DNA of 64,000 nt. Origin: Halobaculum saliterrae (lineage in GTDB: Archaea; Halobacteriota; Halobacteria; Halobacteriales; Haloferacaceae). The stretch spans positions 201,743-265,742 of the forward strand of contig NZ_WUUS01000004.1 of NCBI RefSeq assembly GCF_009831625.1, written 5' to 3'. Position numbers and translations under genes: made by a program. The notes beneath the pieces were generated by a model. The model worked only from the letters and a program-made list of their open reading frames with translations. It ran no database searches and was not told the origin of the DNA. This document shows positions 874 to 19,846 of the stretch, one piece after another. The first letter of the stretch is position 1. The number at the start of each line of letters is the position of its first letter.

Positions 874-2204
874 TGAGTGAATCGTCTAAACTCTCGAAGC
901 ATAGTGAGGAGGGCAAAAGGGTCAAGATGGGACCTCGAACCCTCATTATTCCGGAGGACTGGGAGGACGTAGCGTTCGAGGATGCCATTGAACTGAATCC
1001 AAGCTACGACAAGCCCGATCGCGAGTCATTTGCATTCCTCCCGATGGACGCAGTAGATGAGGACAAGCAAACAATCGAGTACTGGATGGAACGCGAAAGG
1101 GACGACTGTACGTCAACGTGGTTCACGAACGGCGATACCGTCTACCCGAAAATCACGCCCTGTACCGAGAACGGGAAAATCGCACTCATCGAGGGGGTGG
1201 AGACGGAGTTCGGTTCCGGTTCCACCGAGTTTCTGGTTTTTCACCCCCGAGAGGGCATAACTGATGATCGGTTCGTATACTACCTTTCGAACCTTCCGGA
1301 TTTCCGTGCAGTAACAATTTCTCTCATGGAGGGGTCGACGGGTCGTCAACGGGTGCCGAGTGACGTTTTCGAGGGGGGAATACATATTCCACTTCCGTCG
1401 CTTGCCGAACAGCGCCACCTCGCTGATATTCTCTCAACAGTTGACGAGCAGATTCAACAGACAGCTGAAATAATCGAAAAGCGGGATGAACTGCTCACAG
1501 GACTGAAACAGGATCTCCTGCTCGGTCGCAGTGGAACTGATCAACAGGAAATCCAGATGGGTCCGAAATCAGTATGGATTGATTCGAGTTGGGATGTATC
1601 GAAACTTGGCGACGTAGGGCACGACGGCGAGAAGTCGTTCGTTGATGGTGACTGGGTAGAGAGTGATGATATGGTTGCCGACGGTCCATACCAACTTATT
1701 CAACTGGGGAATATTGGAATTGGAGAATTCAAGGGAGAATGCGATAAGTTCGTCTCTGAAGGATTCTTTCAGGAAAATAACTGCACACTCGTTGAAAAGG
1801 GAGACCTCCTTATTTCACGGCTCGCCGACCCAGTCCTCCGCACAATTGAGGTTCCGGAGTTTGAAAAGAAATCTATCACTGCTGTAGATATCGTCGTCGC
1901 AAAAGTAGACGAGTCGGCGTGGGACAAACGCTATCTAAGATTCTTGCTGAATTCAAAAGTGATGAGCGATGTCGGTGGAGCGCTGGCTACCGGTTCAACG
2001 CGACAGAGGATCAGCCGAAAAAACATGGAGACGATAACAATTCCTAAACCTCCGCGTGAGACTCAAACACAAATCGCTGATGTTCTTGAAACAGCGCATA
2101 CCGAGGTAAAAGCCGAAAAAAGGTACAAAGAAAATCTTCAAGATCTTAAACGTGGGCTCATGCAGGACCTTCTTACTGGAAAGACCCGTGTAAACATCAA
2201 CTAG
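873..2204 (+). CDS. hsdS: Type I restriction enzyme specificity subunit HsdS
   Basis: HsdS recognises the bipartite DNA target of the type I enzyme. The 443 residues show the usual two-fold layout: two target-recognition domains, each opened by a matching segment (KMGPRTLIIPEDW near residue 18 and QMGPKSVWIDSSW near residue 228) and each followed by a helical conserved region (RHLADILSTVDEQI and TQIADVLETAHTEV). The last residues QDLLTGKTRV are a typical HsdS ending. The gene is clearly richer in A+T than hsdM and hsdR, most of all in the second half from about base 1560, as expected if recognition domains are exchanged by recombination. It starts inside the hsdM stop codon. Confidence 0.92.
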   Translation: MSESSKLSKHSEEGKRVKMGPRTLIIPEDWEDVAFEDAIELNPSYDKPDRESFAFLPMDAVDEDKQTIEYWMERERDDCTSTWFTNGDTVYPKITPCTENGKIALIEGVETEFGSGSTEFLVFHPREGITDDRFVYYLSNLPDFRAVTISLMEGSTGRQRVPSDVFEGGIHIPLPSLAEQRHLADILSTVDEQIQQTAEIIEKRDELLTGLKQDLLLGRSGTDQQEIQMGPKSVWIDSSWDVSKLGDVGHDGEKSFVDGDWVESDDMVADGPYQLIQLGNIGIGEFKGECDKFVSEGFFQENNCTLVEKGDLLISRLADPVLRTIEVPEFEKKSITAVDIVVAKVDESAWDKRYLRFLLNSKVMSDVGGALATGSTRQRISRKNMETITIPKPPRETQTQIADVLETAHTEVKAEKRYKENLQDLKRGLMQDLLTGKTRVNIN

Positions 2205-2208
2205 TCCC

Positions 2209-5169: not shown

Positions 5170-5909
5170 GCGAGCAATTGAAACGCCACCACCACATCGG
5201 GCAGACGGTCGTACCGTATGCTGTCGATTGGTCGGAGGACCGTGAGACGATGTCGCTCTCGATCGACGAATCGTTGGAGCTGACCGTCACGGCGCCCATG
5301 ACCGCTACCTCCGATGATATCGAGGCCGTGCTGGAGTCACGACAGGAGTGGATCCTTCAGAAACTCTACGGGCTGAAAGAGCAGGAGGGTCCGCCGTATC
5401 CGCAGGAGTACCTGACTGGCGAGAAGCTCCAGTATCGGGGGCGGCAGTACCCGCTGGAAGTCGTTGAGGCGGATGTCTCTCAGCCCGTACTCTCGTTCGA
5501 CGAACAGACGTTCACGCTCCGGACGCACCGGTACGATGGGGGCGGTGATCGCGTGAGTGTTCACCGCAAGCGTCAGGCAGTAGTTGACTGGTTCATCGAA
5601 CAGGCCAGAGCGGAGCTACCGAAGCGCGCGACCGATTTTGAATCGAGGCTGGGGCTGGATGACGTCGACGTGGAGGTCAGCGAGATTGAGGGCCGGTGGG
5701 GCGAGTACGATGACGGCGTGGTGCGTCTGAACTGGCGACTGGTGCGGGCCCCTGTCCGGATTCAAGATTACGTCATCGCGCACGAGTTAGCGCATTCGGC
5801 GCACGACGAACATTCGGATTCCTTCTGGAACACAGTGGGCGCGCTTGTTCCTGACTACGAGGACCGGCGCGAATGGCTCCGATTAAACGGGAATACACTG
5901 GCAGTCTGA
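5166..5909 (+). CDS. YgjP/DUF45-type zinc metallopeptidase next to the type I system
   Basis: A 247-residue protein of the M48-like DUF45/YgjP group. The zinc site is visible as HELAH at residues 206-210, with a probable third ligand His216 in the sequence EHSDSFW, as in SprT/YgjP-like proteins. The start ATG at 5166 overlaps the hsdR stop (ATGA), so it is probably translated with hsdR. Genes of this family are often seen beside type I restriction genes, and a role in controlling or clearing restriction subunits has been suggested; that role is inference here. A longer upstream frame starting at 5025 would overlap hsdR by about 145 bases and is not favoured. Confidence 0.85.
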   Translation: MSEQLKRHHHIGQTVVPYAVDWSEDRETMSLSIDESLELTVTAPMTATSDDIEAVLESRQEWILQKLYGLKEQEGPPYPQEYLTGEKLQYRGRQYPLEVVEADVSQPVLSFDEQTFTLRTHRYDGGGDRVSVHRKRQAVVDWFIEQARAELPKRATDFESRLGLDDVDVEVSEIEGRWGEYDDGVVRLNWRLVRAPVRIQDYVIAHELAHSAHDEHSDSFWNTVGALVPDYEDRREWLRLNGNTLAV

Positions 5910-5936
5910 CTCTCTGCTGACGACTGCGGAATGTCG

Positions 5937-6398
5937 CTACCAGTCGTAATCGTACGTCGCGCGTAGGTATCGCTTCCACGTCTCTTTTTGACTACCAGAC
6001 AACCCACCAGTCATTTCGCTGGTGTTGTTCATCCGATCTTCTGGTTCGAGGAAGTCCCATTGGAAAAAGCCGTGCCCTGGACCGACTGTGCTTGCTGTTT
6101 CTACCAGAGAGGAGAGAACTGGCTCGTCTCGAGTATCTCCTGCCAAGTCTATCAACGCCAGTACGTTTGAGACGTAGGCAGCCTGGCTCCCAAGCCTATC
6201 TGCCAGCCAGCCGTAAGTAACGGTGGGCCGTTCTCTCGTTATCAGGTGCTCGTCGCCTGGATTACCCTCTTCGGCTTTGTCTATCAACAGCGGCCGAGCC
6301 TGCTTCGCGTACGGGACTACCGTCTCCTCGCTGACTTCCTTGTTCTGAAAGTGGTGCTTGTAGACCTTCCTGAGCTGTTCATCGTAATCCCCGTTCAT
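5937..6398 (-). CDS. Hypothetical protein, defence-island type
   Basis: A 153-residue soluble protein of unknown function, convergent with the metallopeptidase gene. The middle contains TYGWLADRLGS, then PVLSSLV and GPGHGFFQWDF, a pattern I associate with small domains found in restriction-type gene neighbourhoods; this link is from memory and weak. The C-terminus ends in KRYLRATYDYDW. I chose the ATG at 6398 instead of an upstream TTG because a TATA-like element (complement of 6424-6431) sits 26-33 bases before it, which fits a leaderless transcript. No catalytic motif is evident. Confidence 0.7.
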   Translation of the reverse strand: MNGDYDEQLRKVYKHHFQNKEVSEETVVPYAKQARPLLIDKAEEGNPGDEHLITRERPTVTYGWLADRLGSQAAYVSNVLALIDLAGDTRDEPVLSSLVETASTVGPGHGFFQWDFLEPEDRMNNTSEMTGGLSGSQKETWKRYLRATYDYDW

Positions 6399-6423
6399 CG
6401 TGAGCAACCTGTGATCGTACCGG

Positions 6424-6431
6424 TATAATTA
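6424..6431 (-). promoter_or_regulatory. TATA-like box for the 5937-6398 gene
   Basis: On the minus strand the sequence reads TAATTATA and lies 26-33 bases upstream of the ATG at 6398, the usual distance for a leaderless haloarchaeal mRNA. It is the main reason for preferring that start. Confidence 0.55.
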
Positions 6432-6705
6432 CTCGGCAGATCGTTCCCTGGCGTTGCCCACGACCCTTTCTCGCTGGCTCGCGCTTTGGTCACGTTGGCG
6501 CTCGGGGTCGGAGCGGTGGCGCGGCCCTCACAGCGGGTACGAGGCCAAAAGCGAGCTGGGCTCGTGGCCCTGTAGGCACGGACGGGCGCTACTGCCGGTG
6601 CTCCCGCATGTTGACAGAACATAAGCACAGTCTCACCAGAACTCCTCGAGTACGGATTCGGTGACGAGAGCGGGTTACCCCACCCTCGGATGCGCGTCCA
6701 AGAGT
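6432..6705. other. Intergenic region between divergent genes
   Basis: About 270 bases between the minus-strand hypothetical gene and the start of the zinc-finger/helicase operon. Apart from the minus-strand TATA box at its left edge, I see no convincing gene, RNA or strong repeat in it. A possible weak promoter element (GGTTACCC, near 6672) precedes the ATG at 6706. Confidence 0.4.
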
Positions 6706-6927
6706 ATGAACTGGATGCAACGAACCGAAGCACCCGAGCGAGACCCAGACGACGAATTGCGAACACCGCAGAGCGCAACCGACCTCGCGGGGGAAGCATT
6801 GACCCCCGCGTCGGTGGTTGAGCGACACAGGACCGCGCTTGAGCAGCACGCTGACTCAGATAAGCGCTCCGCGTGGGTCGCGGCGGTGCTACTCGCTGAG
6901 CACGGCGATTCGGGGGCGGACGCGTGA
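6706..6927 (+). CDS. Small acidic hypothetical protein, first gene of a coupled operon
   Basis: A 73-residue acidic protein with typical haloarchaeal composition and a helical C-terminal half (ASVVERHRTALEQHADSDKR, then a short Ala/Leu-rich end). Function unknown. A GTG at 6661 would add 15 residues; I prefer the ATG at 6706 because the added part looks non-coding. Its stop overlaps a GTG of the next frame (GTGA at 6924-6927), and the same 4-base overlap recurs through the following genes up to the helicase, which suggests a single transcription unit. Confidence 0.5.
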   Translation: MNWMQRTEAPERDPDDELRTPQSATDLAGEALTPASVVERHRTALEQHADSDKRSAWVAAVLLAEHGDSGADA

Positions 6928-7121
6928 GTCCTCCCGCAGCTCTCCGCCCTGACCCCACGAACCGCAGGACAGCGCGGGGATGGTCTACCCTTCACCAAAG
7001 TCCCTGTTTAAAAATAAAAAGAGGCGCTTTGGTGAAGCATGGACTGACCTGGAGCCGTCTGGCGGTTGGTGGTCGACATGACCGGTCCGCTGGCAGCTCA
7101 CTGGGGGTCGGGCAGCGATGA
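6924..7121 (+). CDS. Doubtful small ORF linking the operon
   Basis: A 65-codon frame that starts by GTGA overlap with the gene before it and ends by ATGA overlap with the zinc-finger gene after it. Against it: the product is strongly basic (about 12 Arg/Lys against 2 Asp/Glu), unlike haloarchaeal proteins, and it spans an A-rich segment inside an 11-base inverted repeat (6990-7037) that looks like a promoter or operator. It may be a chance frame across a regulatory region. No family recognised. Confidence 0.2.
   Translation: MSPPAALRPDPTNRRTARGWSTLHQSPCLKIKRGALVKHGLTWSRLAVGGRHDRSAGSSLGVGQR
6990..7037. promoter_or_regulatory. 11-base inverted repeat flanking an A/T-rich TATA-like core
   Basis: CTTCACCAAAG (6990-7000) is repeated exactly in inverted orientation as CTTTGGTGAAG (7027-7037). 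The 26-base spacer contains TTTAAAAATAAAA (7008-7020), by far the most A/T-rich stretch nearby. This is what a promoter framed by a dimeric repressor site would look like, about 80-100 bases ahead of the first zinc-finger gene. A hairpin in RNA is the alternative. The zinc-finger proteins encoded downstream are possible binders (inference). Confidence 0.5.
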
Positions 7122-7423
7122 CGGCCGATGACGACCGGTGGGCCAAGTACGAGACGCAGCCCGACGAGATCGACACCGACGCGCCCGATGATATGGTAGT
7201 CTGTCGGGTTTGCAGCGGTACCTACGGCCAGATCACGGCCCAACACCTCCGCGTGCACGGAATGACCCTGAAGGAGTACAGGCAGGAGCATTCGGACGCG
7301 CCGATCTACCCGGACCACCCCGATCGGCAACCTGGCGGGGGTTTCGAGGAACACACCGAGGAGTCGAAAGAGAAGATCTCGGAGGCGATCTTCGGCCTGC
7401 ATCAGGAGGGGCACTACGAATGA
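7118..7423 (+). CDS. Small Ros/MucR-like single zinc-finger protein
   Basis: A 101-residue protein with one zinc-binding module: Cys29-x2-Cys32, then His43 and His47 in QHLRVHGMTLKEYRQEH. The HLxxHGMTxxEY signature is that of Ros/MucR-type DNA-binding zinc fingers and related phage or restriction-associated modules. The C-terminal part is charged and probably flexible. It overlaps the next zinc-finger gene by ATGA. Likely a DNA-binding protein or the recognition subunit for the helicase encoded two genes on; the partner idea is inference from gene order. Confidence 0.75.
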   Translation: MTADDDRWAKYETQPDEIDTDAPDDMVVCRVCSGTYGQITAQHLRVHGMTLKEYRQEHSDAPIYPDHPDRQPGGGFEEHTEESKEKISEAIFGLHQEGHYE

Positions 7424-7788
7424 ACCAGATCGGAAACTCCGACTCGTGGAGTCGGGCCGACGCTGTCCTCGTTGGCACAGTCCCCCAGATCCGTCGAGCG
7501 GTCCGGAGAGTGTTGGAAGAGCACCCGACACCAAACGACAAAGACCAGCGTGACCCCTGGGCGCGTCCACTGGGCTACGACGCTGATAAGGCAGTCTGCC
7601 GGTGTTGCCTCCGCGCCTTCGACGAGATTACCGACAGACACCTTGCTCAGGCACACGGAATCCGGGCTTCAGAGTACGCCGACCAGTACGATGACCCGGT
7701 CAGAGACCCCGAACCGCTCGGCGAGGACGAACTCACAACAGCCGAGTGGAAGGGCTGGGCTCACTCCATTGGCGGTGGTCCAAAGTGA
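7420..7788 (+). CDS. Second Ros/MucR-like single zinc-finger protein
   Basis: A 122-residue protein with a zinc module like that of its neighbour: Cys60 and Cys63 in AVCRCCLRAF, then His74 and His79 in DRHLAQAHGIRASEY. The first 50 residues are a separate helical segment. The start at 7420 is chosen for the ATGA overlap with the previous gene; the frame itself is open further upstream. Its stop overlaps a GTG of the helicase gene (GTGA). Two diverged copies of one finger type in tandem suggest duplication followed by specialisation. Function unknown; DNA binding is likely. Confidence 0.72.
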   Translation: MNQIGNSDSWSRADAVLVGTVPQIRRAVRRVLEEHPTPNDKDQRDPWARPLGYDADKAVCRCCLRAFDEITDRHLAQAHGIRASEYADQYDDPVRDPEPLGEDELTTAEWKGWAHSIGGGPK

Positions 7789-10079
7789 CCGATGACCGCG
7801 GCGCCCCCTATGTGAAGCGGATCACTCACGAAGTCCCACAGTCGATAAGGCCGCGCTGGGAGTCGGGCGAGGAGATCCCGCCTGAAGAGATTCAGGACGC
7901 CTTCGACCCCACGGTCGAGCAACTGGTCGAGGCAGAGAGCTCTGGGGTAGATCTCGTACCGGTCCAGGGCCCGATCTCGTCCGGGAAATCGTGGCTTCTC
8001 GCTGCGACAGCAAGACGTTTCCAACGGTTGGGGAAGGAGGTGCTGGTGCTTTCGCCCCAGAAGCAGAACCGGAGGGAGCTAGTCGGTAGGCTCGGATCGC
8101 TCGGCGCAGACGTCATCGAATGCCCGAGCAACCGCGACCTCTGTCTTTGGGACAGCTGGAAACGAAGCTCAAACCGGTTCGATCACGGCGTCTGTTCGTG
8201 TAACGGGTGTCCGTACTACCCCGAGAACTGGGACGAACTTCACGAGCACGTACTGAATGGCTTGTCCGAACACATGGACGACGAGTCGCCGGTCGTTCTC
8301 TCCCAGCGTGAGCTCATCGAGTTAGCTGAAAACGGAGTAGTCGGGAACTGCCCGAAGTACTTGATAAGAGCCATAGATGGTTGTAGCGAGTTCGATCACG
8401 CTGTTCGGGTGGCAACCCACCAGAAAGCGCTACCAGATTCGTTGGTTGGAGACGGAGGCGGGCCGTTCGACCCAGACGTGGTTCTGGTAGACGAGGCGCA
8501 TAGTCTCGCTGCGGACACTGATGTTGTCAGTCAATCCGTGGACACAGACGAGCTGGTTGCCGACCTGAATGCCATCGCTGACGGAGCGAAATACGCTGAG
8601 GGACTCGAGAGCGTCCGGTACGGAGACTCAATCGACGATGTGGCGGACGCGCTAATCGACTGGTCCGAAGAAAGCAGTAGGAAGGAGGTAAGCCCAGAGT
8701 CACTGCTCAAGCGCGGAGTCGGTGTCGACGATCTCGATGAGACCCTGACGGATGTCGAAGAGGGTCTGCAATCTTGGCTCGGTATTGGCAGCACGCCTGA
8801 TGACGAAGTCCAAGCGGCCCTTGATGCCGTGGGCAGAATCCGTGAATTCGTAGCCTTGCTTCGGTCCTACTTGGAGGGTGAACACGAGTTCGTACACGCC
8901 CGGTACGAACAACAGGGGAACGACCTGAACTGGCTCGCGTTCAGGCGTCTACAGGATGGCCGGGAGAGTAGCGATTACTCAGGCGAAGAGGTATTCAACC
9001 ACTGGGAGAAGACGGGGACCCACTACGCAATTAGCGAACGTTGGGGTGGATTCCTGGAGGAACATATCAAGCAGATCTGGGAAGGTTACTCCGTGAGTCG
9101 GAGTGAAAAGACGTCAGCCAGTGCCCGCGTCCGGGGACCGCTCGAGTCGCTACAAGTCACCACAGGAGCAGACCTTGTCTGTGGGTTCTCTGCCACGCAC
9201 AATCAACTGTCCGACCCAAAGCGGCCAGTTGACGACCCTCGTGAGACAGCCCACGACATCGTTGTGGTCGAGCCGAATCTGAGGACAAGTGGAAAAGACA
9301 TCCAAACAGGAGGGGCGTCTCCGTCACGAGAGTGGTTCCAGAGATCGGTGCGCCAGGCGAAAAATGAGTCAGGGGCGAACCTCGCTGCTGTTCCAATAAA
9401 CAAACGCAACAGTGATCGGTGGACGAATCTGCCAGTGGAGAAACTGCGCTCAGAAGATCGCCTGGGCAGAGGGACTGAGATCAGCGGACTCGTTCCACAT
9501 AGCCGGAACGCGATCGGGAACAAGGATTATGAAGAACTTGAGATCGATGCCGTGCTGGCGGGCGTTCAAGTCCAGTCGCCTGCTGACACCGCCAGGAGGC
9601 TCATAGACCTCTGGTACTTACTCGCGCCGCGTTATCAGACTCCAGCGGAGGCACTAGAAGAGTCGTGGCGGATGTTGGCACAGGCGGCGCTTTCGGGAAC
9701 TATTCAGGCGGCCGGTAGGTTCTGCTCCGAGGCACCCACCGTCCTGTTCGATCTCCCCGGCCTCGTTGAGCTCGCAGGCTATGAGTTCGAGCAGGCCTCG
9801 ACTGAGACGGACGGGTTCCCCGGAGCGTTCACGCGGGCCTTCGAGGAGCGACGAGACCAGTTGAGGGAGGATCGGTCTGTTGACGGTGTGAAGAAGTCGG
9901 TTGACCACGTTATGGAACACAACTCTAAGTCACCTACTATCTCACAAACGACTTCGATGTACGAACGTGCCTTTGGTGGCCCAACAAAGCTCTCCGCCGA
10001 AGACGCCCTTGAGAGGGCACTTGACCGTGGAGAGCTGCAACTCGTGCGCGGCTATCTCAGATTCCCAAACGGCGCGTAG
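7785..10079 (+). CDS. XPD/DinG-like superfamily 2 helicase with iron-sulfur cysteines
   Basis: A 764-residue DNA helicase-like ATPase. Walker A is GPISSGKS (62-69), Walker B DEAH (236-239), and motif VI QAAGR (641-645). Between motifs I and II lie cysteines at 113, 120, 137, 139, 142 (CNGCPYYP) and 189 (NCPKYLIRA), an arrangement like the 4Fe-4S domain of XPD, FancJ and DinG. These enzymes unwind DNA 5' to 3'. I chose GTG 7785, which overlaps the previous stop (GTGA); a GTG at 7746 is possible. The coupled zinc-finger genes suggest a targeted helicase. It diverges strongly from housekeeping XPD and lies in an accessory island, so repair, plasmid or defence roles are all open. Confidence 0.8.
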   Translation: MTDDRGAPYVKRITHEVPQSIRPRWESGEEIPPEEIQDAFDPTVEQLVEAESSGVDLVPVQGPISSGKSWLLAATARRFQRLGKEVLVLSPQKQNRRELVGRLGSLGADVIECPSNRDLCLWDSWKRSSNRFDHGVCSCNGCPYYPENWDELHEHVLNGLSEHMDDESPVVLSQRELIELAENGVVGNCPKYLIRAIDGCSEFDHAVRVATHQKALPDSLVGDGGGPFDPDVVLVDEAHSLAADTDVVSQSVDTDELVADLNAIADGAKYAEGLESVRYGDSIDDVADALIDWSEESSRKEVSPESLLKRGVGVDDLDETLTDVEEGLQSWLGIGSTPDDEVQAALDAVGRIREFVALLRSYLEGEHEFVHARYEQQGNDLNWLAFRRLQDGRESSDYSGEEVFNHWEKTGTHYAISERWGGFLEEHIKQIWEGYSVSRSEKTSASARVRGPLESLQVTTGADLVCGFSATHNQLSDPKRPVDDPRETAHDIVVVEPNLRTSGKDIQTGGASPSREWFQRSVRQAKNESGANLAAVPINKRNSDRWTNLPVEKLRSEDRLGRGTEISGLVPHSRNAIGNKDYEELEIDAVLAGVQVQSPADTARRLIDLWYLLAPRYQTPAEALEESWRMLAQAALSGTIQAAGRFCSEAPTVLFDLPGLVELAGYEFEQASTETDGFPGAFTRAFEERRDQLREDRSVDGVKKSVDHVMEHNSKSPTISQTTSMYERAFGGPTKLSAEDALERALDRGELQLVRGYLRFPNGA

Positions 10080-10276
10080 AGTCGGGATGAGCGGGGGGCG
10101 CCGTGCGCGTGCGCGCGAGACCACAAAACAGCGGACATCTCGGAAACACCCCACTTGATACGCGCAATCCCGCTCACGGCCACTCAAAACCTCCCGTAGA
10201 GAGCGTCAACGGCAGATTTCGGCAGCGCTTGCTCAGATCGTAACGAATGGATTCAAAAGTGACAAAAAACGAATGA
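10080..10276. other. Intergenic region before the integrase gene
   Basis: About 200 bases with no gene. The part next to the integrase is A-rich (CAAAAGTGACAAAAAACG, about 10253-10270) just ahead of the ATG at 10277. No repeat matching the segment at 17800-18429 was seen. Confidence 0.35.
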
Positions 10277-11497
10277 ATGCCAGACCTGACCGACATCCAC
10301 GGCTTCGGTGAGCAGTTCCAGAACCAACTGGCGAAACTTGAGGAGGCCGACATCGACGATGCAGACAGAAAGGCGATCCGGGCGTTCACCCGTTATCAGG
10401 ACACCCAGCGAGACCTAGCGACGAGCACGCTGGTCAACAACCTCTCGGACTTGCGACTATGTGCCGAGCGCGCCGACCTACCGCTCGTTAAGATGGAGCG
10501 CGAAGATGTCGACGAGCTGCTGTTCCGGTACAAGCACGACCGGGGGCTGGCGAAGGGGACGCTCCGGAACTACCGCAAGGCGCTCAAGAAGTTCTTCCGG
10601 TACCAGGACTGCGAGTGGGCAACCGAGATCGAGATCGGTGCGAGTCCTGATAGGGAGGTCGACGCCGACAAGACGCTCGAAGAAGAAGAGATCGACGCGC
10701 TGCGCGACGCCGCGAACCATCCGCGGGACAAGGCGCTGCTCGAACTTCTGCTCGACACCGGACTCCGGATCAGCGCCGCGGGGACGCTTCGGGTTGGTGA
10801 TGTCCATCTGGACGGGCGCACCGGCGCGATCACGCTGAACAAGGAAGCAGTGGGTCGGAAGGGAGCGTCCGGCACCCGTCCCCTCGTCTGGAGCAAGCCG
10901 TACATCGCGAACTGGCTCGATGTCCACCCTCGCAGTGACGACCCCGACGCCCCGCTGTTCGTCTCACTCAAGAGGCCGGACGACCCCCAGTATGGCGACG
11001 GCTCCCTCACCTACTACCGCTACCAGCAGATCCTCAAGGAGCTCGCCGAGGACGCGGGAGTAGATGGCGAGAAAGTCAACCCCCACAACTTCCGCAAGAG
11101 CGCGATTTCGCGGTGGATCCGCGAGGGGTTCTCCGAACAGGAGATCAAACACCGCGCGATGTGGGTGAAGGACAGCCGGCAGTTCGAGACCTACTCGCAG
11201 GTCACGGACGAGGAGATGAACGACCAGATCCTCGGGAAATACGGGATGTCGGACGAGGGAGAGGACCACAGCCCGAAGATCGAAAACTGCCCGCAGTGCC
11301 AGACACCGCTTCGAGAAGACGCGAGCTTCTGCCCCGGATGCGGATTGCCGCTCAGCCAGACCGCAGCTCGCGACATGGAGGAGGCGGAGGACGACTTATT
11401 CGCGGATCTCGCGGATGCTCAGAGTCCGTCAGACATTGGGATGCTCCAAGACCTGCGCTCCGTCATCAAGGAGCATCCTGGACTGTTGAGTGACTGA
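10277..11497 (+). CDS. Tyrosine recombinase/integrase with C-terminal zinc ribbon
   Basis: A 406-residue XerC/D-like integrase. An N-terminal SAM-like core-binding domain (about 1-115) precedes the catalytic domain: Arg164 (TGLRIS), His270-x-x-Arg273 (HNFRK), and the nucleophile Tyr306 in FETYSQV. After the catalytic domain comes a zinc ribbon with CxxC pairs at 338/341 and 352/355. The enzyme looks intact. It stands alone between the helicase operon and a hypothetical gene, 197 bases after the helicase. It may move the island, resolve circular forms, or recombine local DNA; no flanking attachment repeats could be identified by eye. Confidence 0.9.
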   Translation: MPDLTDIHGFGEQFQNQLAKLEEADIDDADRKAIRAFTRYQDTQRDLATSTLVNNLSDLRLCAERADLPLVKMEREDVDELLFRYKHDRGLAKGTLRNYRKALKKFFRYQDCEWATEIEIGASPDREVDADKTLEEEEIDALRDAANHPRDKALLELLLDTGLRISAAGTLRVGDVHLDGRTGAITLNKEAVGRKGASGTRPLVWSKPYIANWLDVHPRSDDPDAPLFVSLKRPDDPQYGDGSLTYYRYQQILKELAEDAGVDGEKVNPHNFRKSAISRWIREGFSEQEIKHRAMWVKDSRQFETYSQVTDEEMNDQILGKYGMSDEGEDHSPKIENCPQCQTPLREDASFCPGCGLPLSQTAARDMEEAEDDLFADLADAQSPSDIGMLQDLRSVIKEHPGLLSD

Positions 11498-11551
11498 ATC
11501 ACGGCGCGTACCTGTAACTGCTCTTCGGAATGCCGGCGCGTTGAGTTGGGC

Positions 11552-11848
11552 CTATTGCGGGGAACCACAGTACTCGATGCTCTCTACCTCATGACCGCTC
11601 GTCATAGGGTTACTGCCACTCGGGTGGATCCAAGCAGTCTCCACATCGTGCGATGGGTTCCAAGAGAGAACCTGCTCAGAATTGTCTCGGGCAAGCGTCA
11701 AGTAGTAGACCGACTCCCCGGGCGATGGTGATCGAGCCTCCTTGTCGGCCACATCGTATCCGTCATCGTTCACGGTGAGTCGGTCCCCGACCTTGATCTC
11801 CTCGAAGTCGGGCAACTTCTCTCGCAGGTCATCGATCGTGACTGTCAC
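11552..11848 (-). CDS. Hypothetical protein
   Basis: A 98-residue acidic protein of unknown function, convergent with the integrase gene and divergent from the 11955 gene. It begins with a helix (TIDDLREKLPDFEEI) followed by beta-rich segments (KVGDRLTVNDDGYDVAD). It resembles small single-domain proteins common in haloarchaea. Nothing in it shows a catalytic site, and a link to the neighbouring nuclease gene is not established. Confidence 0.6.
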   Translation of the reverse strand: MTVTIDDLREKLPDFEEIKVGDRLTVNDDGYDVADKEARSPSPGESVYYLTLARDNSEQVLSWNPSHDVETAWIHPSGSNPMTSGHEVESIEYCGSPQ

Positions 11849-11920
11849 TGGTCAGTTGTAATCGCCTCTGGAGAAAGAAGTTGTGAGGTTCAGAGTAACC
11901 CTCGCTGGTTCTGCGACACA

Positions 11921-11928
11921 GTTAATCC
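11921..11928 (+). promoter_or_regulatory. TATA-like box of the PUA-like/nuclease gene
   Basis: GTTAATCC lies 27-34 bases before the ATG at 11955, the expected place for a leaderless haloarchaeal promoter. It supports that start codon. Confidence 0.4.
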
Positions 11929-11954
11929 AGACCAATCTCAGGTCTACTGCATAG

Positions 11955-12992
11955 ATGGCGGACATCTTTCTCGTACCCGTTGGCGACGGTTGGATAGAGG
12001 AGTTCCGAGATACAGTCGAATCACCGGTGCAGTTGGATGGAGAACAGACCATCGAGGAGCTTTCCGACCACGAGGAAGCGCGAATCTGGGGGACCACCAG
12101 AGGCGGCTTCAAGCAGGATTACTACGAGAGTATGGAGCCTGATGATGTACTCTTGTTCTATTCTGCTGGTGAATACTTCGCCACAGGCAGGGTCGGTGAG
12201 CGTTTCGAGAGCTCTGGAGTCGGCGAGTGGCTCTGGGACAACCCAGAAAGCCGGTTCAACTACACGATCACCGATTTCGAGCCAGTCTCTCTATCGCGGG
12301 AGGATCTGAACTCGCTCCTCGGATATGAGGAAAACCATTCGCCCCAAGGATTCCTCCGTGTATCGGATACCGCCCGCACGAACCTACTGCAGCGGTATAA
12401 CTCGGTCGAGGCAGCGTTCCAAGACATTCGTGACGGCGGTTTAGAACTCGAAGGACGTGACGATGGCAAAGAAGACGATGAAGATGAGCCAGATGACTCT
12501 CCGCGCGAACACACTGAAATCCAGTGGCACCTCGTCCAGTTGGGACTGAAGCATGACTATGAGGTCTACGTCGCGAAGAACGACCAGAACCTCACCTACG
12601 ACGGTCGGCGGCTCGCCGATGGATGTATGGAAGATTTGGAACTCACAGGTTTCAGCGATGCAGCGATGCGGATTATCGAGTATGTCGATGTCATCTGGCT
12701 TGACGGAGACTACATAGCGAAGATGTTCGAAGTCGAAAGTACGACGAGTGTCTACAGCGGTATTCTCCGGATGTCCGATTTCGTTGTGAAGGTGCCAAAT
12801 CTCGCCGTCGAGATGCATATCGTGGCGTCGGAGGAGGACGAGCAGAAGGTCCGACGTGAGATGGAGAGGCCCACCTTCCAGCGAGTCATGGGGATGCCCG
12901 ACCACTCGACCCTTCGATATACCTCGTTCGAGGAGGTGCGAAAGAAGCACCAGACGGTTCAGGACGCAGGCCCACTCCAATCAGTCTTCTGA
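11955..12992 (+). CDS. PUA/EVE-like domain fused to PD-(D/E)XK nuclease; candidate modification-dependent restriction enzyme
   Basis: A 345-residue two-domain protein. Residues 1 to about 150 look like a PUA-like (EVE/ASCH type) pocket domain: DIFLVPVGDGWIEEF, ARIWGTTRGG, DDVLLFYSAGEYFATGRV. Domains of this fold read modified bases. After an acidic linker (about 165-190) comes a nuclease-like domain with Asp245 in VDVIW and Glu259/Glu261 in KMFEVESTTSVYSGILRMSD, the pattern of a PD-(D/E)XK family often seen in restriction contexts. Reader plus nuclease is the classic design of type IV, modification-dependent restriction enzymes, so it may cut DNA with modified bases. The catalytic lysine position is not certain from the sequence alone. 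Confidence 0.72.
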   Translation: MADIFLVPVGDGWIEEFRDTVESPVQLDGEQTIEELSDHEEARIWGTTRGGFKQDYYESMEPDDVLLFYSAGEYFATGRVGERFESSGVGEWLWDNPESRFNYTITDFEPVSLSREDLNSLLGYEENHSPQGFLRVSDTARTNLLQRYNSVEAAFQDIRDGGLELEGRDDGKEDDEDEPDDSPREHTEIQWHLVQLGLKHDYEVYVAKNDQNLTYDGRRLADGCMEDLELTGFSDAAMRIIEYVDVIWLDGDYIAKMFEVESTTSVYSGILRMSDFVVKVPNLAVEMHIVASEEDEQKVRREMERPTFQRVMGMPDHSTLRYTSFEEVRKKHQTVQDAGPLQSVF

Positions 12993-13135
12993 GTTTATAC
13001 TGGCGTTCAGCACCTGAGTGGTCAGAAAGCATACGAGGACGGATCCGGTGCTGAACCGCACTGTCAGTCTCCCCCCGACCAAGTGCCTGTAACTATTCAC
13101 AATACTTTCAGTGTTTGACTGTGTTGACAGGTGGC

Positions 13136-15115
13136 ATGGCTACGGATTTAGAACCGGTCTGGACGACGACCCTCCCGCAGGCCTCAAGTCGGGATCCGCT
13201 TCGCGTCGATGGCGCTCGTGGGAGTATTCGAAATCAGCTATTTCCTCATTTGACTGCGGTCGCGAGTCGGACGCGGCTTCGGTATCTCTCGTTCCTCGCG
13301 TGGTGTCTCGACAACCGGGCACATGAGTTGGACTGTTCGCTGGAGTTGTTCGAGGTCCAGTTCCTGCTCGGGTCGATGGCCTGTGACGCCGATATTGGCC
13401 CGCTTGGTGGCAGCGGATTCGTCGGTGTAGGACGCGACGTTTCAGGAACCGACATCACCATCAGTGACCTCGTTAACCACGAGACACCACCGATCGATAT
13501 CTCGCCCGAGCGTGTTCGGATTCATAGCGGCAGCCCGACGTTCTCTGAAAGATACGCTCGAATGGCGACCGACCTCGCCCTCGTTGAACCGAACTCGGAC
13601 GAGCTTACGCCGCTTGGCGAGGCAGTGGCGACCGCCTACGAGGACGCCATTGATATCTCGTTCGACACGTTCATCGAACAAGCTCGTGATCAAACGGTCT
13701 CGGGGAGTTTCTTGACCGCGTTTTCGGGCAGTGGCTGTGCCTGTAGTCTGTCGGCAGCCGAAATCCAACTCTTCCGACGCCTCTTCTTCGGGTTATCCGA
13801 ACTATCACGAACCGGTAATGACCAGACGCTCACGTTCACGGAGACCCCACCAAGCCACCCGGCCGATCTGGAGCCGGTCTTCGAGCGCTATCGTCGAGCG
13901 ACCACGGATGTGGGGGTTGATTCCGTTCTTGATGTAGTAGCGGTTCAGGGCGACGTAGAGTTCGACACAGAGGTGACATCAGCGCTGGTTTCCCGCTTCG
14001 CCGAGGGCCAGCCCATCTTCGCTCGGGGGTCATTGCTATTCGTACTCGGGCTTGGCGCCCAACACAACGCAGACCGTGATATGCCAGTCATGGGCGATCT
14101 CGACCAGATCGCCGACGTGTGGGCACTCCACAATCTTGCCCGGCGGTTCGTCGGAGTCAACGAACAACTGCTTGAGCTCCTTATCGAGGTGGTACGCCTC
14201 CTCGAACCGGCTACGCCACAAGACGTCGCCCGGACGGTCGTCTCCACGGATGCCTTCACTCAGACGTTCGCGGCCGTCCCCGCTGATGTGACGATCACGC
14301 TGCCGGACAGTGATACTCAGACGACCGGTCTCCAACCCCTCTGGCAGGCCGCGACGTACGGGGAGTGGTTCCTTACCCAGCCGACAGTATCACTTGAGCC
14401 AGCCGGTGATGCAATCCATAATGAGGCATCGGAAGCTGTGCTCTCATGGACCGACATCCGGACGCGGCTCGAACGTGGGAACGATCAACCTCGGTTCTCG
14501 CTTGATAAGCGAGCTCCCTGGGCACTCTTTCATCTGTTCGATACCGCGGTCGATCGAGCCACGAGCGCCGCGCAAACCGGTGATAATAGGTCGGCACTCG
14601 CTGCGGCCGGGGAAGCCGTCTCGTTAGCTGCCCAGCTGTTCGCCAGGTGGCAAACGTGGCACGATACCTATCTCGCTACTCCAGAGCGGGAGGCGCTTGC
14701 AGCCTGGGTCGAGGCCCAGTTCGCTGCACCGCCGGCAAACGCCACACAGCCGACGGATCAACCCCTCTCACCGCGATTTCTCTGGGCGTTCCCTTACGAT
14801 ACCACACAGCCGGTCGCGGATATCATGGCAGCCTATCTCGAAACGTGGATCGTCCGCAGGTATGTTCGTGTCATGTACCGGAAATACCGAAACAATGGTC
14901 GGGCACCGACCTTCCTAACGATGAATGAGGTCGGTGAGCTGTTTTACGAGCAGTCATACCGGACGGCCGGTCCAAACCCGAATATCTACAAGCAGGTTGC
15001 TGACGTACTCTGTGAGCTCGACCTCATTGAGACAAACGATCGAAACGACATCCAGGTGACCGGTGAGGGGCGAGCGATCGTCGATCGGCTATGTTCGGAG
15101 GTGCCCTGTGAATGA
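13136..15115 (+). CDS. Unrecognised 659-residue protein coupled to a PLD-type protein
   Basis: First gene of a two-gene module. I do not recognise the full protein. Its N-terminus carries SIRNQLFPHLT and then SRTRLRYLSFLAWCLD, a segment that resembles the R-x-R-Y-x-x-F-x-W opening of large proteins such as DUF6361 found beside defence genes (recalled, not checked). LLGSMACDADIGPLGGSGFVG follows, then a mostly helical body; the last 70 residues look like a winged helix (MNEVGELFYEQS, VADVLCELDLIE). No transmembrane segment or ATPase motif is seen. The start ATG 13136 has an A/T-rich element about 30-45 bases upstream; an earlier TTG is less likely. Its stop overlaps the next start (ATGA). G+C is lower than in the core genome. 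Confidence 0.72.
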   Translation: MATDLEPVWTTTLPQASSRDPLRVDGARGSIRNQLFPHLTAVASRTRLRYLSFLAWCLDNRAHELDCSLELFEVQFLLGSMACDADIGPLGGSGFVGVGRDVSGTDITISDLVNHETPPIDISPERVRIHSGSPTFSERYARMATDLALVEPNSDELTPLGEAVATAYEDAIDISFDTFIEQARDQTVSGSFLTAFSGSGCACSLSAAEIQLFRRLFFGLSELSRTGNDQTLTFTETPPSHPADLEPVFERYRRATTDVGVDSVLDVVAVQGDVEFDTEVTSALVSRFAEGQPIFARGSLLFVLGLGAQHNADRDMPVMGDLDQIADVWALHNLARRFVGVNEQLLELLIEVVRLLEPATPQDVARTVVSTDAFTQTFAAVPADVTITLPDSDTQTTGLQPLWQAATYGEWFLTQPTVSLEPAGDAIHNEASEAVLSWTDIRTRLERGNDQPRFSLDKRAPWALFHLFDTAVDRATSAAQTGDNRSALAAAGEAVSLAAQLFARWQTWHDTYLATPEREALAAWVEAQFAAPPANATQPTDQPLSPRFLWAFPYDTTQPVADIMAAYLETWIVRRYVRVMYRKYRNNGRAPTFLTMNEVGELFYEQSYRTAGPNPNIYKQVADVLCELDLIETNDRNDIQVTGEGRAIVDRLCSEVPCE

Positions 15116-17799
15116 ACCTGATCCAGGATCTCCGAGATGGGCAGGCGGGTCTGACCGGGGCGCTCTTTTCGACGTACACCTTCGCACCGGAATATTTCGA
15201 GCAGATGGTCCGCTACCACGTCGCCGATCGCGGGGCGGGCACGACGGTTGTCGTGTTCACGGATGCAGAGACATATCAAACGACGCTTGAAGAGGAAGCA
15301 GTTAGTATCGGGAATCAATATCAGCTTGCTCCAGTCACGGTTCCAAACCGAACGTATCATCCGAAGCTGTGTTACCTTGCGGGCGAGGAGTACGCGGTCG
15401 GGTATGTTGGCAGCGTGAATCTCACCCAGCGAGGGATCAACAGCAACCGGGAGTTACTGACGAAGGTCCGCTGTACCAGTGGAGATGTTAAAGCACTCGG
15501 AGATGCACTAGCCAGTGGAGGGGAGTTGGACGCTGATGAGCAGGCGACGGCCCGCAAGGTATCGGTTCTCTACGGCGTCCATCAATTCTATGCACAGCTG
15601 CTTGAGGTCTCGAACGGCGACCGGATCGGACAAGTGGCCCGCTCCCACGTCGGTGATGTTCTTGAAGCAGCATCGTGGCTTGCAGAGATCGGCTCGGAGC
15701 TATCCGATTACTCACAGGTCAATACTACGAGCAGTCTCGTCCACAATTTTGAGACACCGCTGTGGCCACAGGTTAAGGCCGAACTCGATAGGCGTGAAGA
15801 GTCGTTCCGGCAGGTGGACATCGCCGTGCCATACTACGGTCAGACGCTAGATGTCCCCGAACGGATCATGGATGTTAGCGATAGTGTGACGCTGTGGCTC
15901 CAGCGTGGATCAACTAGCATCGATACAGACCAGTTGGCCGACCTGGTTGACCGACCCGGACTCACGCTCCGTGTATACGACGAGTCACGATTCGTCCATG
16001 GCAAATGGCTGCGGATTGAGACCGACACGGCGACCTATAGCCTACTGGGCAGTCAGAATGCGTCGCGATCGGCAATGTTAGAGTCAGCCAGCCGACCAAA
16101 AGACGGTGCCGGTGGCACCGGTAACGTGGAGGTCAGCCTCCTCCAACGGCGTGGGTCGACGGACGCGTTCGACGACATCATTGGGGATACACAGTTCGAG
16201 AACATCGAGGAATACACGGGCGAGCTGCCATCCGCGTCTTTCCGTGATCCTGGTAACCCGCAAGCTGCGCCCACCGACGGGACCGTTTTGGAGCTTGATT
16301 CCGTTAGTTTCCGGCCGGATCTGACCGAATCTGCGGGCACCCTACGGATTGCGGCACGCCGGCGATCAATCCTGCCGGCGGATCCCGATGAACGCTGCCT
16401 TGAGGTCGCGCCGGATATGTCCGACGAGATCGTAATTCCGCTCCGGTCAATTCATGCAGTCGAATCGGAGACAGCAGCTCACTCCGTGGATGACTGGCGG
16501 ACAGCGATCTACGAACGGCCCATACATCGAAGCAAATGGGTGGACGCGCTCTCAGGAAGTGTGACGGCTCAGCTGCGGTGGAGCGATGAGCGGTCGGCTC
16601 AGCGGTGGGTCGAGTACCATGCCGTTGAGGCGGGTGAGAATGCGCGGGCAGCAGAGGACGCCGGCGCGAATGCCATCATTACGAACCTATCGCGACTGCT
16701 GCAGGGTGACCAAGACGAAATCGAGGACGCGCTTGCAAGCCTCCAGAGTGTCGTGGCCAGTTTGGATGCACTTTCAGGCGAGCCGTTGTACTCAGTGGAG
16801 AGCGGACAGCTTCAGACACCGTTACCAACCAGCGAAGCGCCTGATAGTGACGACGGGTCAGTCACGCCCACGGCAACGCACCCGTCATGGAGTGGATCAA
16901 CGAATGAGGAGGATGCCGAATCGCTCGTTGAATCCTTCCTCGATGGGTGGGCAGGTGAGGTCAGCGTGCATCGCGACCAACTCCTACAAGAGCGCGATTT
17001 CACCGAGTCCATGCCGCCGGATCCGGAGACAGTCACGAACCAGAATATCACCGTTACGCAACACCTCGCGAGCCGCCTCGGGGCGCTTAATACTGTCACT
17101 CCCTATCTTGATGCGCTCGATACCCATCTTCAACGGCAAAGCGATGTAGATGTCTCGCTCGATGCGGTCGTTCGTGACCTCCCCGAACGATACCGTAGTC
17201 TCTACCTCGAACGAACGACCGTCGGAAGTGGCGAAACATTTCTTGACTCCCAACTTTGGGGCTTCCTGGATAGGGCGGGCAGGGTTGCAACTGACGAGTA
17301 TTGTGGAACCGAGCGCTTTCACATGGCACTCCACGACTCGATCGGGGCGGCAATTGTGACGGCAGCCGTCATCTGTGAATCGCAATTGGACTGTTATGAT
17401 CCTCTCGCCGATGAGTCGGCGAATTGGCCGCTGGCGAGACAATATTTGATGACGCTTCCAGAGTCTGCGCCTCCTGAACTTGACCAGCCAATACTCGAAT
17501 GGGGCGTGGCACAAGTGGACGCGGCAATGGACCCGATCGAAGTGACTATGACAGAGAGTGGGACCAAAGAACTCTGGTCACTCGTTGCGGATGCACTCCA
17601 GTACGAATCCGACCTTCGAAGTGTCGTGGGGCGGTTTTATGCTCGGGTAATATTGCTGGGAACCGACACGAGAGGGAAGTGGACAGACATGGAGATACCG
17701 ATTGAAGTACTCGAGTCGATGCAGATGTATGCGGACGAACTCGGTCGGTCGATCCCCGAGACGACGCTTTCGACGTGGGAGTTGTCAAGTACGCATTGA
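15112..17799 (+). CDS. Phospholipase D-like protein with two HxK motifs, probable nuclease
   Basis: An 895-residue protein whose first about 370 residues form a complete, two-half phospholipase D-type active site. Half one has His83-x-Lys85 (YHPKL) and GSVN at 100-103; half two has His296-x-Lys298 (VHGKW) and GSQN at 313-316. Many prokaryotic members of this superfamily are endonucleases (helicase-linked PLD, BfiI-like), so DNA or RNA cleavage is likely; lipid hydrolysis is less likely because there is no signal peptide. The remaining about 500 residues are helical with an acidic linker around 570-605 and match nothing I know. It overlaps the upstream gene by ATGA, so the two products probably work together. 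Confidence 0.78.
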   Translation: MNLIQDLRDGQAGLTGALFSTYTFAPEYFEQMVRYHVADRGAGTTVVVFTDAETYQTTLEEEAVSIGNQYQLAPVTVPNRTYHPKLCYLAGEEYAVGYVGSVNLTQRGINSNRELLTKVRCTSGDVKALGDALASGGELDADEQATARKVSVLYGVHQFYAQLLEVSNGDRIGQVARSHVGDVLEAASWLAEIGSELSDYSQVNTTSSLVHNFETPLWPQVKAELDRREESFRQVDIAVPYYGQTLDVPERIMDVSDSVTLWLQRGSTSIDTDQLADLVDRPGLTLRVYDESRFVHGKWLRIETDTATYSLLGSQNASRSAMLESASRPKDGAGGTGNVEVSLLQRRGSTDAFDDIIGDTQFENIEEYTGELPSASFRDPGNPQAAPTDGTVLELDSVSFRPDLTESAGTLRIAARRRSILPADPDERCLEVAPDMSDEIVIPLRSIHAVESETAAHSVDDWRTAIYERPIHRSKWVDALSGSVTAQLRWSDERSAQRWVEYHAVEAGENARAAEDAGANAIITNLSRLLQGDQDEIEDALASLQSVVASLDALSGEPLYSVESGQLQTPLPTSEAPDSDDGSVTPTATHPSWSGSTNEEDAESLVESFLDGWAGEVSVHRDQLLQERDFTESMPPDPETVTNQNITVTQHLASRLGALNTVTPYLDALDTHLQRQSDVDVSLDAVVRDLPERYRSLYLERTTVGSGETFLDSQLWGFLDRAGRVATDEYCGTERFHMALHDSIGAAIVTAAVICESQLDCYDPLADESANWPLARQYLMTLPESAPPELDQPILEWGVAQVDAAMDPIEVTMTESGTKELWSLVADALQYESDLRSVVGRFYARVILLGTDTRGKWTDMEIPIEVLESMQMYADELGRSIPETTLSTWELSSTH

Positions 17800-18429
17800 G
17801 GATTGATGGTGGCTCTATTGCCAGAATTATAACCCAATTGTGGCTCGTCCTCGCCGCCACCGACCCGTTTTTTCAGGAAACGCTCGTTCAGCCACGAGAC
17901 TTTACTGAGGCGCAACCGCTAAGCCCGAGAAGTTCCTGGTCGGAGACTTGTATTGGGGGAGTGCATCGATCCTGAACGAGGCAACTGGGGGCGCAACCGC
18001 GGCAATCCGAAGCGAATGACTCATTCTCTAGCCGTCGTTGCCGTGACAACGCTCAACACGCTGCCGTGTGTCTACATCTGGGCACCTTTCACTCATCCAA
18101 ACAAACTGAGGACCTCATCGGCTTGCCTGTCGCTCACTTTGCGGGTTTGAATACGCGGCCTGCAGCTATCGTCGCACATTTTGATTGGACTGGCAACCAT
18201 GCTAAATGTGCGCTCTGTATTCAGCACGACAGTTAAAAATTATAACTGGTTGGGTGTTTCAACAGAGCCAGCCAATCCGAACATTCCCTCTGAAAAGCGC
18301 TCAAGGATGCGAAAATCGAAGATTAGGGCCCGCCCGGGACTATTCTTCCGACACCGATGCCGTCGTCGCCGCCGGCGATGTCGATACCTCGTAACAACTC
18401 ATTAGTGTCGAACTAGTGAAGGGTTTGCC
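17800..18429. other. Gene-poor segment at the island/core boundary
   Basis: 630 bases of lower G+C with no convincing gene. A frame without stops from 17976 to 18236 has no ATG/GTG in a good position; its end (HFDWTGNHAKCALCIQHDS) has a CxxC and could be a remnant of a lost gene, but this is weak. A short inverted repeat CAGTTA/TAACTG (with a 7-base A/T spacer) lies at about 18229-18247. No tRNA or attachment-type repeat is visible. Base composition rises sharply to core level after about 18330. Confidence 0.5.
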
Positions 18430-19707
18430 ATGGTCGCGTTCTCCGGGGTCACGCAGACAGTCAAGCGGGTCGTGTCCGACTTCTCCGACAAGAACGTGAC
18501 GTTCATGGCGGCCGGTATCGCCTACAACGCCCTCGTCTCGCTGGCCCCGCTGGTGATCCTGTCGCTGCTCCTCGTCTCCGCGGTCGGCGGCGGGCTGGAG
18601 GAGCGACTGCTCGCCGTGGCCACCGACTCGCTGCCGGGCCCGATCGCCGACGCGATCGTCGGTATCGCCGGGAGCCAGCCGTCGCTCGCCGGCGTTTCCG
18701 TCGTCGGGGTCGTCGTGCTCCTGTGGGGGACGCTCAAGATATTTCGCGGGCTCGACACGGCCTTCTCGGAGATCTACGAGACCACGGTGGAGAACTCCCT
18801 TCGCGATCAACTCGTGGACGGAGCTGTCGTGTTCGCCGTACTCGTCGCCGCGATCGTCGCGACCGTCGGCGTCACCGCCCTCTTCTCGGTGCTCTCCGAG
18901 ACGATCCCGCTCGTCGGACTGTTGACCCCGGTCGTGCTGATCGCCGGACTCGTGGCCGCGTTCCTCCCCATGTACCGGCGGTTCCCGGACGCCGATCTCG
19001 AGTGGCGGGAGGCGCTCCCGGGTGCGGTCGTCGGCGCGGTCGGCTGGGCCGTGCTGCAGGGGATCTTTCAGGTGTACCTCACGTTCAAGGGCGACGGCTC
19101 TGGCGGCTTCTTCGGCGGCGTGATCGTCGTCGTGACCTGGCTCTACTTCTCGAGCCTCGTGCTCCTGCTCGGGGCCGTTCTCAACTCGGTTCTCGGCGGA
19201 CACTCGACGGGACAGCCGGGCGGCGTCGGCGCCAGCGTCGCTCAGCGCGGCACGGACACGGAGCTGGACACCGCGATGGATCGGGACGAGCTGTCCGGGT
19301 ACCTCCGCGACCTCCGCGAGCGACTCACCGGGCGCTACGAGGAACTCGACCCGTCGGACGAACCGGCGGGTGCGGCGTCGAACGGCGAGACGGTCGGGTC
19401 GAGGGCGTCGAGTCCCCGTCCGACGGGTGCGGGCCCGGAGAACGACGACGGCGCCGCCTTGTTGGCCGACGAACCAGTGACGAAGACGGGCCGACGCCGG
19501 GGAAGCGACGGTGGGGTTCGGGAGGATCGAGAGGTCAGGGAGATCCGGGGGACGCTGCGGACGTTCCGGCCGCGTTCGCTGGAGGGGGATCCGGTGGAAG
19601 TGATCGAGCGGTCGCGCGTCGACTGCGACGAGCGAGTCCACGAGATCACGATCACCTGGCGGACCGCCGAACCGGAAGTGGAGGACGACACGTCGGACCG
19701 GCGCTGA
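18430..19707 (+). CDS. YihY/BrkB family membrane protein
   Basis: A 425-residue inner-membrane protein. The first about 260 residues show the six hydrophobic segments and signature sequences of the YihY/BrkB (formerly RNase BN) family: NVTFMAAGIAYNALVSLAPL near the N-terminus and GSGGFFGGVIVVVTWLYFSS before the last helix. Its transport or structural role is unknown; family members are no longer thought to be RNases. The C-terminal about 165 residues are a charged, disordered, Gly/Asp/Arg-rich cytoplasmic tail, an extension not usual in bacteria. First clear core-genome gene right of the island. Confidence 0.9.
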   Translation: MVAFSGVTQTVKRVVSDFSDKNVTFMAAGIAYNALVSLAPLVILSLLLVSAVGGGLEERLLAVATDSLPGPIADAIVGIAGSQPSLAGVSVVGVVVLLWGTLKIFRGLDTAFSEIYETTVENSLRDQLVDGAVVFAVLVAAIVATVGVTALFSVLSETIPLVGLLTPVVLIAGLVAAFLPMYRRFPDADLEWREALPGAVVGAVGWAVLQGIFQVYLTFKGDGSGGFFGGVIVVVTWLYFSSLVLLLGAVLNSVLGGHSTGQPGGVGASVAQRGTDTELDTAMDRDELSGYLRDLRERLTGRYEELDPSDEPAGAASNGETVGSRASSPRPTGAGPENDDGAALLADEPVTKTGRRRGSDGGVREDREVREIRGTLRTFRPRSLEGDPVEVIERSRVDCDERVHEITITWRTAEPEVEDDTSDRR

Positions 19708-19846
19708 CGCGAACGCTCGGCCATCGCGCGCCGAACCGACGGGTGGGGTTCCGTCGTCTCGTTCCGGGGACATCGCGTGGAACGTGCCCGCTCGTCCTCG
19801 CGTCGGTTGCCGGCGACGTTTTCACCGTCGGCGTCAACCTCTCACC

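Follow-up and report, generated by a model that had tools for sequence, protein, structure and literature searches.

Locus and encoded proteins

The genes studied here lie in a stretch of 64 000 nucleotides of Halobaculum saliterrae DNA, which was analysed as a whole and is referred to as the window. Gene A (13136..15115, + strand; ATG at 13136, stop at 15113-15115) encodes 659 aa, and gene B (15112..17799, + strand; ATG at 15112) an 895-aa protein of the PLD superfamily that is distantly related to ZacB. The A stop and the B start share the letters ATGA (15112..15115, + strand), a 4-nt overlap that is kept in most relatives. The first 18 kb of the window, with the pair at their right-hand end, have a lower G+C content than the rest (0.53-0.61 across window positions 1-18000 vs. 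0.65-0.76 across 18000-64000), and the same island carries HsdM, HsdS, HsdR, a YgjP-like metalloprotease and a 777-aa P-loop protein together with a tyrosine recombinase and a type II-REase-like protein. An earlier interpretation made from the DNA letters (the sequence-only reading) had described two genes overlapping by ATGA in a lower-G+C island with restriction-type genes; ORF coordinates, G+C profile and R-M neighbours agree with this description.

The type I R-M genes HsdM, HsdS and HsdR, followed by the overlapping gene of the YgjP-like metalloprotease, occupy window positions 7-5909. The 777-aa protein (7746-10079), a putative helicase or ATPase with a P-loop (GPISSGKSW) and a Cys-rich segment (CSCNGCPYY), gave only weak matches to nSTAND, DinG-like and MAD8 models. 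The tyrosine recombinase (10277-11497) is of the XerC/D type with a C-terminal zinc ribbon, lies within the low-G+C island and may mark a mobile element. An integrase gene is also found upstream of the pair on a Halorussus plasmid (L036 7597-8835); no similarity to the window recombinase was detected by tblastn. The REase-like protein encoded immediately upstream of A (11955-12992; PADLOC REase_II, 8.6e-15) shares its N-terminal ~135 residues with proteins of two other haloarchaeal pair loci (L022 4110-5456 and L023 4022-5398); one of these two proteins has a catalytic domain of the Mrr type. The REase-like protein may be a companion that recurs with the pair and carries a modified-base reader domain.

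Protein B was matched by PLDc_2 in a Pfam scan (E = 2e-7). The model of residues 1-360 (15112..16191, + strand) shows two PLD lobes at high confidence, a Tdp1-like catalytic region; the C-terminal region, residues 361-895 (16192..17796, + strand), is fast-diverging and mostly helical, and most of these 535 residues were modelled with low confidence. A Foldseek search with the B model returned Tdp1 as the nearest structure (E 1.2e-7), followed by PPK1, which has the same two-lobed fold, SauUSI, NgoAVII and BfiI. The first HxK...GSxN motif (H83, K85, GSVN 100-103; 15358..15420, + strand) and the second (H296, K298, GSQN 313-316; 15997..16059, + strand) are highly conserved: H83, K85, S101 and N103 in the first half and H296, K298, G313, S314, N338 and E340 in the second are invariant in all 56 divergent B relatives aligned, and N316 is kept in 55/56. 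Since invariant residues are found in both halves, neither half has been lost, which is what a single pseudo-dimeric active site would require. As each half carries HxK and GSxN and the fold is that of PLD proteins, B belongs to the PLD superfamily.

The two-half PLD active site at His83/Lys85 and His296/Lys298, each with GSxN, had thus been placed at the right positions by the sequence-only reading, and its conservation is far from chance. The halves are complete with respect to HxK and GSxN; the description of the site needs correction in that the classical HKD aspartate is absent from both, which makes the motifs HKN type, as in Tdp1 and BfiI, and in that each half has a conserved Glu (E114 in 54/56, E340 in 56/56). 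DNA cutting by PLD-family nucleases requires neither metal nor NTP, as established for Nuc and BfiI.

Protein A is predicted to be all-helical (659 aa), with a conserved N-terminal RxRYxxFxxW block and a winged-helix-like C-terminal unit. The family-defining motif RLRYLSFLAW (A residues 47-56; 13274..13303, + strand) was recognised in alignments, in which R49 is invariant and R47, Y50 and W56 are invariant or nearly so. Its presence had been noticed correctly; the spacing is R-x-R-Y-x-x-F-x-x-W, with one residue more before the tryptophan than had been given. The possible winged-helix end (A residues 617-654; 14984..15097, + strand) is consistent with the structure model, in which helix 617-627, strands 631-633 and 639-641 and helix 643-654 are predicted with pLDDT ~82. 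A has also held up as an unrecognised protein without known fold: no family was matched among Pfam and NCBIfam models, and a search of the A model against the PDB gave nothing below E 0.28. Because A has no fold match, the term DNA-binding for this protein is based on the predicted winged helix and its position. Sequence searches of the PDB with the single proteins and with 40-row profiles yielded no relative; the fold searches proposed earlier returned Tdp1 and PLD restriction nucleases for the lobes of B and no PDB match for A.

Distribution, coupling and surroundings

B was found in 9/293 genomes of the haloarchaeal order, and A lies directly upstream with a 4-nt overlap in all nine; Halobaculum limi is a relative from the same genus. 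These pairs comprise the window, five identified by BLAST and three identified by profile (hhalign E 1e-16, full length). Four further archaea across the phylum carry B with A upstream, so that A is present at 13/13 archaeal loci where B was strongly matched; four archaeal genomes with partial PLD matches only are without A. At one of the four further archaeal loci (L132, G490:C3, 8154-9527) the N-terminal match of A is interrupted by a stop, whereas B is intact; this A gene may be a partner in decay.

A search of genome contigs with window B as single query gave no match; the bacterial loci were found with an alignment of bacterial B proteins as query. Among the 58 genome loci from bacteria, 57 have an A-family gene or fragment upstream of B, including a few broken or cut copies (L063, L083, L112, L116 and L118). 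In L063 (370-3327) an internal deletion has fused the A and B frames, with loss of the A C-terminus and B residues 1-32; it was rejected as an A-B fusion and classed as a broken copy with both genes truncated. The pair occurs in haloarchaea, other archaea, Proteobacteria, Actinomycetota and Bacteroidota, and is plasmid-borne in Halorussus, Halobaculum, Novosphingobium, Streptomyces, Sphingopyxis, Mycobacterium avium, Polaromonas, Roseovarius, Undibacterium and Myroides. No relative was found in phage records and viral contigs.

At the A stop, ATGA was read in 64 of 73 records and GTGA in one (a few records are near duplicates); five minus-strand haloarchaeal loci have ATGA (three) or GTGA (two), all with a 4-nt overlap. 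Across 56 loci, the A and B distance matrices were correlated with r = 0.97 (no shuffle out of 2000 exceeded 0.23), which shows, at the level of sequence, that the genes travel together and is no evidence on physical contact. In a B tree rooted on ZacB, the haloarchaeal proteins form one clade (support 0.95) inside a mainly bacterial family. Judged from these genomes, A-B is a real and widespread unit.

The surroundings of the pair vary between loci. In haloarchaea, an Argonaute and a PDC-S01 protein (L022, the only locus with a pAgo near the pair, which it does not adjoin), a Mokosh-like helicase (L023), a type II REase (L021) and, on the Halorussus plasmid (L036), a Tiamat-like protein are encoded nearby. 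UvrD-like helicases are found near the pair in L018 and L020, with an HNH nuclease in L018. A 1536-aa UvrD-like helicase gene lies directly upstream of the pair in L020 (4739-9349), preceded by a second UvrD-like gene, and a PD-(D/E)xK and UvrD-like gene pair adjoins A in L018; these may be AddAB-like defence neighbours. In bacteria, the pair immediately follows Zorya (L058), is inserted into a type I R-M operon between HsdS and HsdR on a Myroides plasmid (L059 7346-11463), and lies next to type I R-M in Roseovarius (L056) and next to a methylase-REase pair (L054). A scan of 60 neighbour proteins added MmeI-type R-M, SoFic, Mokosh-like and Gabija-B-like proteins. Many pairs have no adjoining R-M, no neighbour is as constant as A, and neither a fixed methylase partner nor an evident self-non-self mark was found across the pair loci.

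The survey of orthologous pairs called for earlier thus gave A upstream of B in 9/9 haloarchaeal genomes, repeatedly in defence neighbourhoods. Instead of consistently occupying non-defence operons, the pairs recur beside R-M, Argonaute, Zorya and other defence-type genes; as read from gene content, the indication of defence-rich surroundings is strong in qualitative terms.

Relation to ZacABC

For ZacABC, two archaeal loci served as the only reference (L129 9549-16007 and L130 9826-16288), both detected by a ZacA model search (E 1e-127 and 1e-130). Each encodes ZacA (410-415 aa; DUF6361, PF19888 at 2.3e-60), ZacB (~630 aa, two HxK) and then a ~1110-aa SF2 helicase with DEAD and Helicase_C domains, to which we assign the name ZacC by inference. 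Window B matched the PADLOC ZacB model (PDLC03829) with E = 4.7e-9 over part of the model, and window A matched the ZacA model (PDLC03828) with E = 0.0049 over 49 residues (15-63). In profile-profile comparisons, B and ZacB aligned over 286 columns of the PLD region (E 6.8e-9, probability 96), the rest of the protein being different; for A and ZacA, where the template had two sequences, the alignment spanned 89 columns (E 1.9e-4, probability 48). Comparing A with ZacB and B with ZacA gave nothing.

The likeness extends to the A-then-B order with overlapping genes, to the two HxK motifs of ZacB and to the ZacA N-terminal block DELG...LFPG...RARYFLFVPW, which matches the A block DPLG/DPLR...RLRYLSFLAW. 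Unlike ZacA, A has no Pfam match to DUF6361 in the window, which leaves it outside the ZacA kind, and is ~100-250 aa longer; the C-terminus of B is longer than that of ZacB, and no counterpart of the reference SF2 helicase was found in the pair loci. When the reference helicases were searched by tblastn over the window and the pair loci (83 sequences), nothing was found except a 42-residue helicase-motif match in L117. By sequence comparison, the two genes are distantly homologous to ZacA and ZacB, whose order they share. The earlier statement that no named system contains this exact pair therefore needs narrowing, because ZacABC has distant homologues of both genes; it stands insofar as the helicase and a match to the ZacA model are missing here.

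A literature search returned no relevant paper on ZacA, ZacB, ZacABC or DUF6361. The single Zorya-linked pair (L058) is no evidence on the origin of the name Zac.

Proposed function and comparison with known systems

We assign a probability of roughly 0.55 to the reading that A-B is a stand-alone two-gene system against viruses or plasmids without an NTPase motor of its own, with B as the nuclease and A as its obligate partner. B would be a monomeric, pseudo-dimeric PLD-type DNA nuclease with two HKN half-sites that form one active centre, and would cut or degrade invader DNA, the putative substrate. A would be a helical DNA-binding protein with a predicted winged-helix end that binds B, probably recruiting it to invader DNA and otherwise holding it inactive. 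DNA as substrate, the A-B complex, recognition by A, nuclease activity and defence are what we infer from the comparisons above. The co-diverging A and the repeated defence neighbourhoods lend good support to what the sequence-only reading had anticipated, a nuclease of PLD type that has its own partner and is set among defence genes.

A precedent is provided by APAP of haloarchaea, in which the PLD nuclease AgaP is paired with a pAgo and gives immunity against DNA; AgaP restricts plasmid DNA by means of its catalytic centre and is toxic without pAgo (PMC11442185). By analogy with AgaP and pAgo, B may cut DNA under the direction or restraint of A.

The toxicity of AgaP on its own, tamed by pAgo (PMC11442185), would also suit a toxin-antitoxin-like abortive system, in which A neutralises a broadly toxic nuclease B until infection breaks or titrates A and the cell destroys its own nucleic acid. 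This is the strongest competitor, albeit a distinctly less probable one: the partner-first gene order with translational coupling is typical of toxin-antitoxin pairs, and among strong B matches it is rare for B to persist without A, but both proteins are far larger than usual toxin-antitoxin proteins, a DNA-binding end is predicted on A, and APAP itself reportedly acts without noticeable abortive infection (PMC11442185). Sequence cannot separate direct restriction from abortive toxicity.

That B is an accessory nuclease of adjoining restriction systems, using their motor or modification signal, appears improbable: type I R-M is present in the island of the window, around the Myroides pair and beside the Roseovarius pair, but, as described above, neighbours vary by locus, many pairs lack R-M and none is as constant as A. 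We consider it just as improbable that the pair is a divergent ZacABC with a helicase supplied from elsewhere in the genome; A and B are related to ZacA and ZacB and helicases are close by in L018, L020 and L023, but these are UvrD- or Mokosh-type with no common partner among them, and a ZacC-like gene was absent from the 83 sequences, barring the short L117 match. Least probable of all is a role in DNA repair or mobile-element maintenance, with Tdp1-like chemistry clearing protein-linked DNA ends, for which the best structural match to Tdp1, itself a repair enzyme, the shared HKN motifs and the several plasmid-borne pairs would speak, but against which stand the patchy spread (9/293 haloarchaeal genomes), defence neighbours unlike repair genes and the match of the B fold to PLD restriction nucleases as well.

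If the stand-alone reading holds, the DUF6361-PLD core of ZacABC can function without helicase. More tentatively, and with somewhat less than even odds, the pair could represent an undescribed NTPase-free immune system across archaea and bacteria, in which A senses invader DNA directly or, for example, by its ends and licenses the Tdp1-like B; ZacABC may then be a derivative of this core with an added helicase. The pair is widespread, yet neither Pfam nor NCBIfam has a family for A, and PADLOC models catch the pair only weakly; no published description of A-B was found in a literature search that covered few subscription papers. Its small size and haloarchaeal origin make the pair readily testable in Haloferax or Haloarcula.

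Among known systems, Tdp1 resembles B as a two-lobed monomer with two HKN motifs; B differs in being prokaryotic, in its ~13% identity, its extra C-terminus of ~500 residues and its obligate partner gene. BfiI, NgoFVII/NgoAVII and SauUSI use the same PLD catalytic fold against DNA, whereas B holds both half-sites in one chain and no effector domain, helicase or methylase partner was recognised; RE_NgoFVII scored 15 bits with window B (cut-off 23.8), and no methylase directly adjoins the pair there. APAP shares with the pair a haloarchaeal PLD-family nuclease and a dedicated partner; its partner is an Argonaute, however, and AgaP has one HxK with a remote GSxN in contrast to the two HxK-GSxN halves of B (PMC11442185). 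No pAgo match, and hence no adjacent Argonaute, was obtained among the ten proteins of window 1-19773.

DISARM DrmC and Dpd DpdK are, like B, PLD-superfamily proteins in a defence context, with weak matches (E ~0.035) and none of their other subunits seen. DISARM was rejected on a DrmC match of E = 0.035 and the absence of DrmA and DrmB among the ten window proteins scanned with PADLOC, which bears out the earlier separation of the pair from this system; for Dpd and Pbe only weak PLD-core matches were obtained. It is ZacABC that the pair comes closest to, and it looks like a stripped-down relative of this three-gene system. We conclude from the sequence comparisons that a two-gene core is common to A-B and ZacABC, a candidate defence system, but that A-B constitutes a separate, helicase-free branch.
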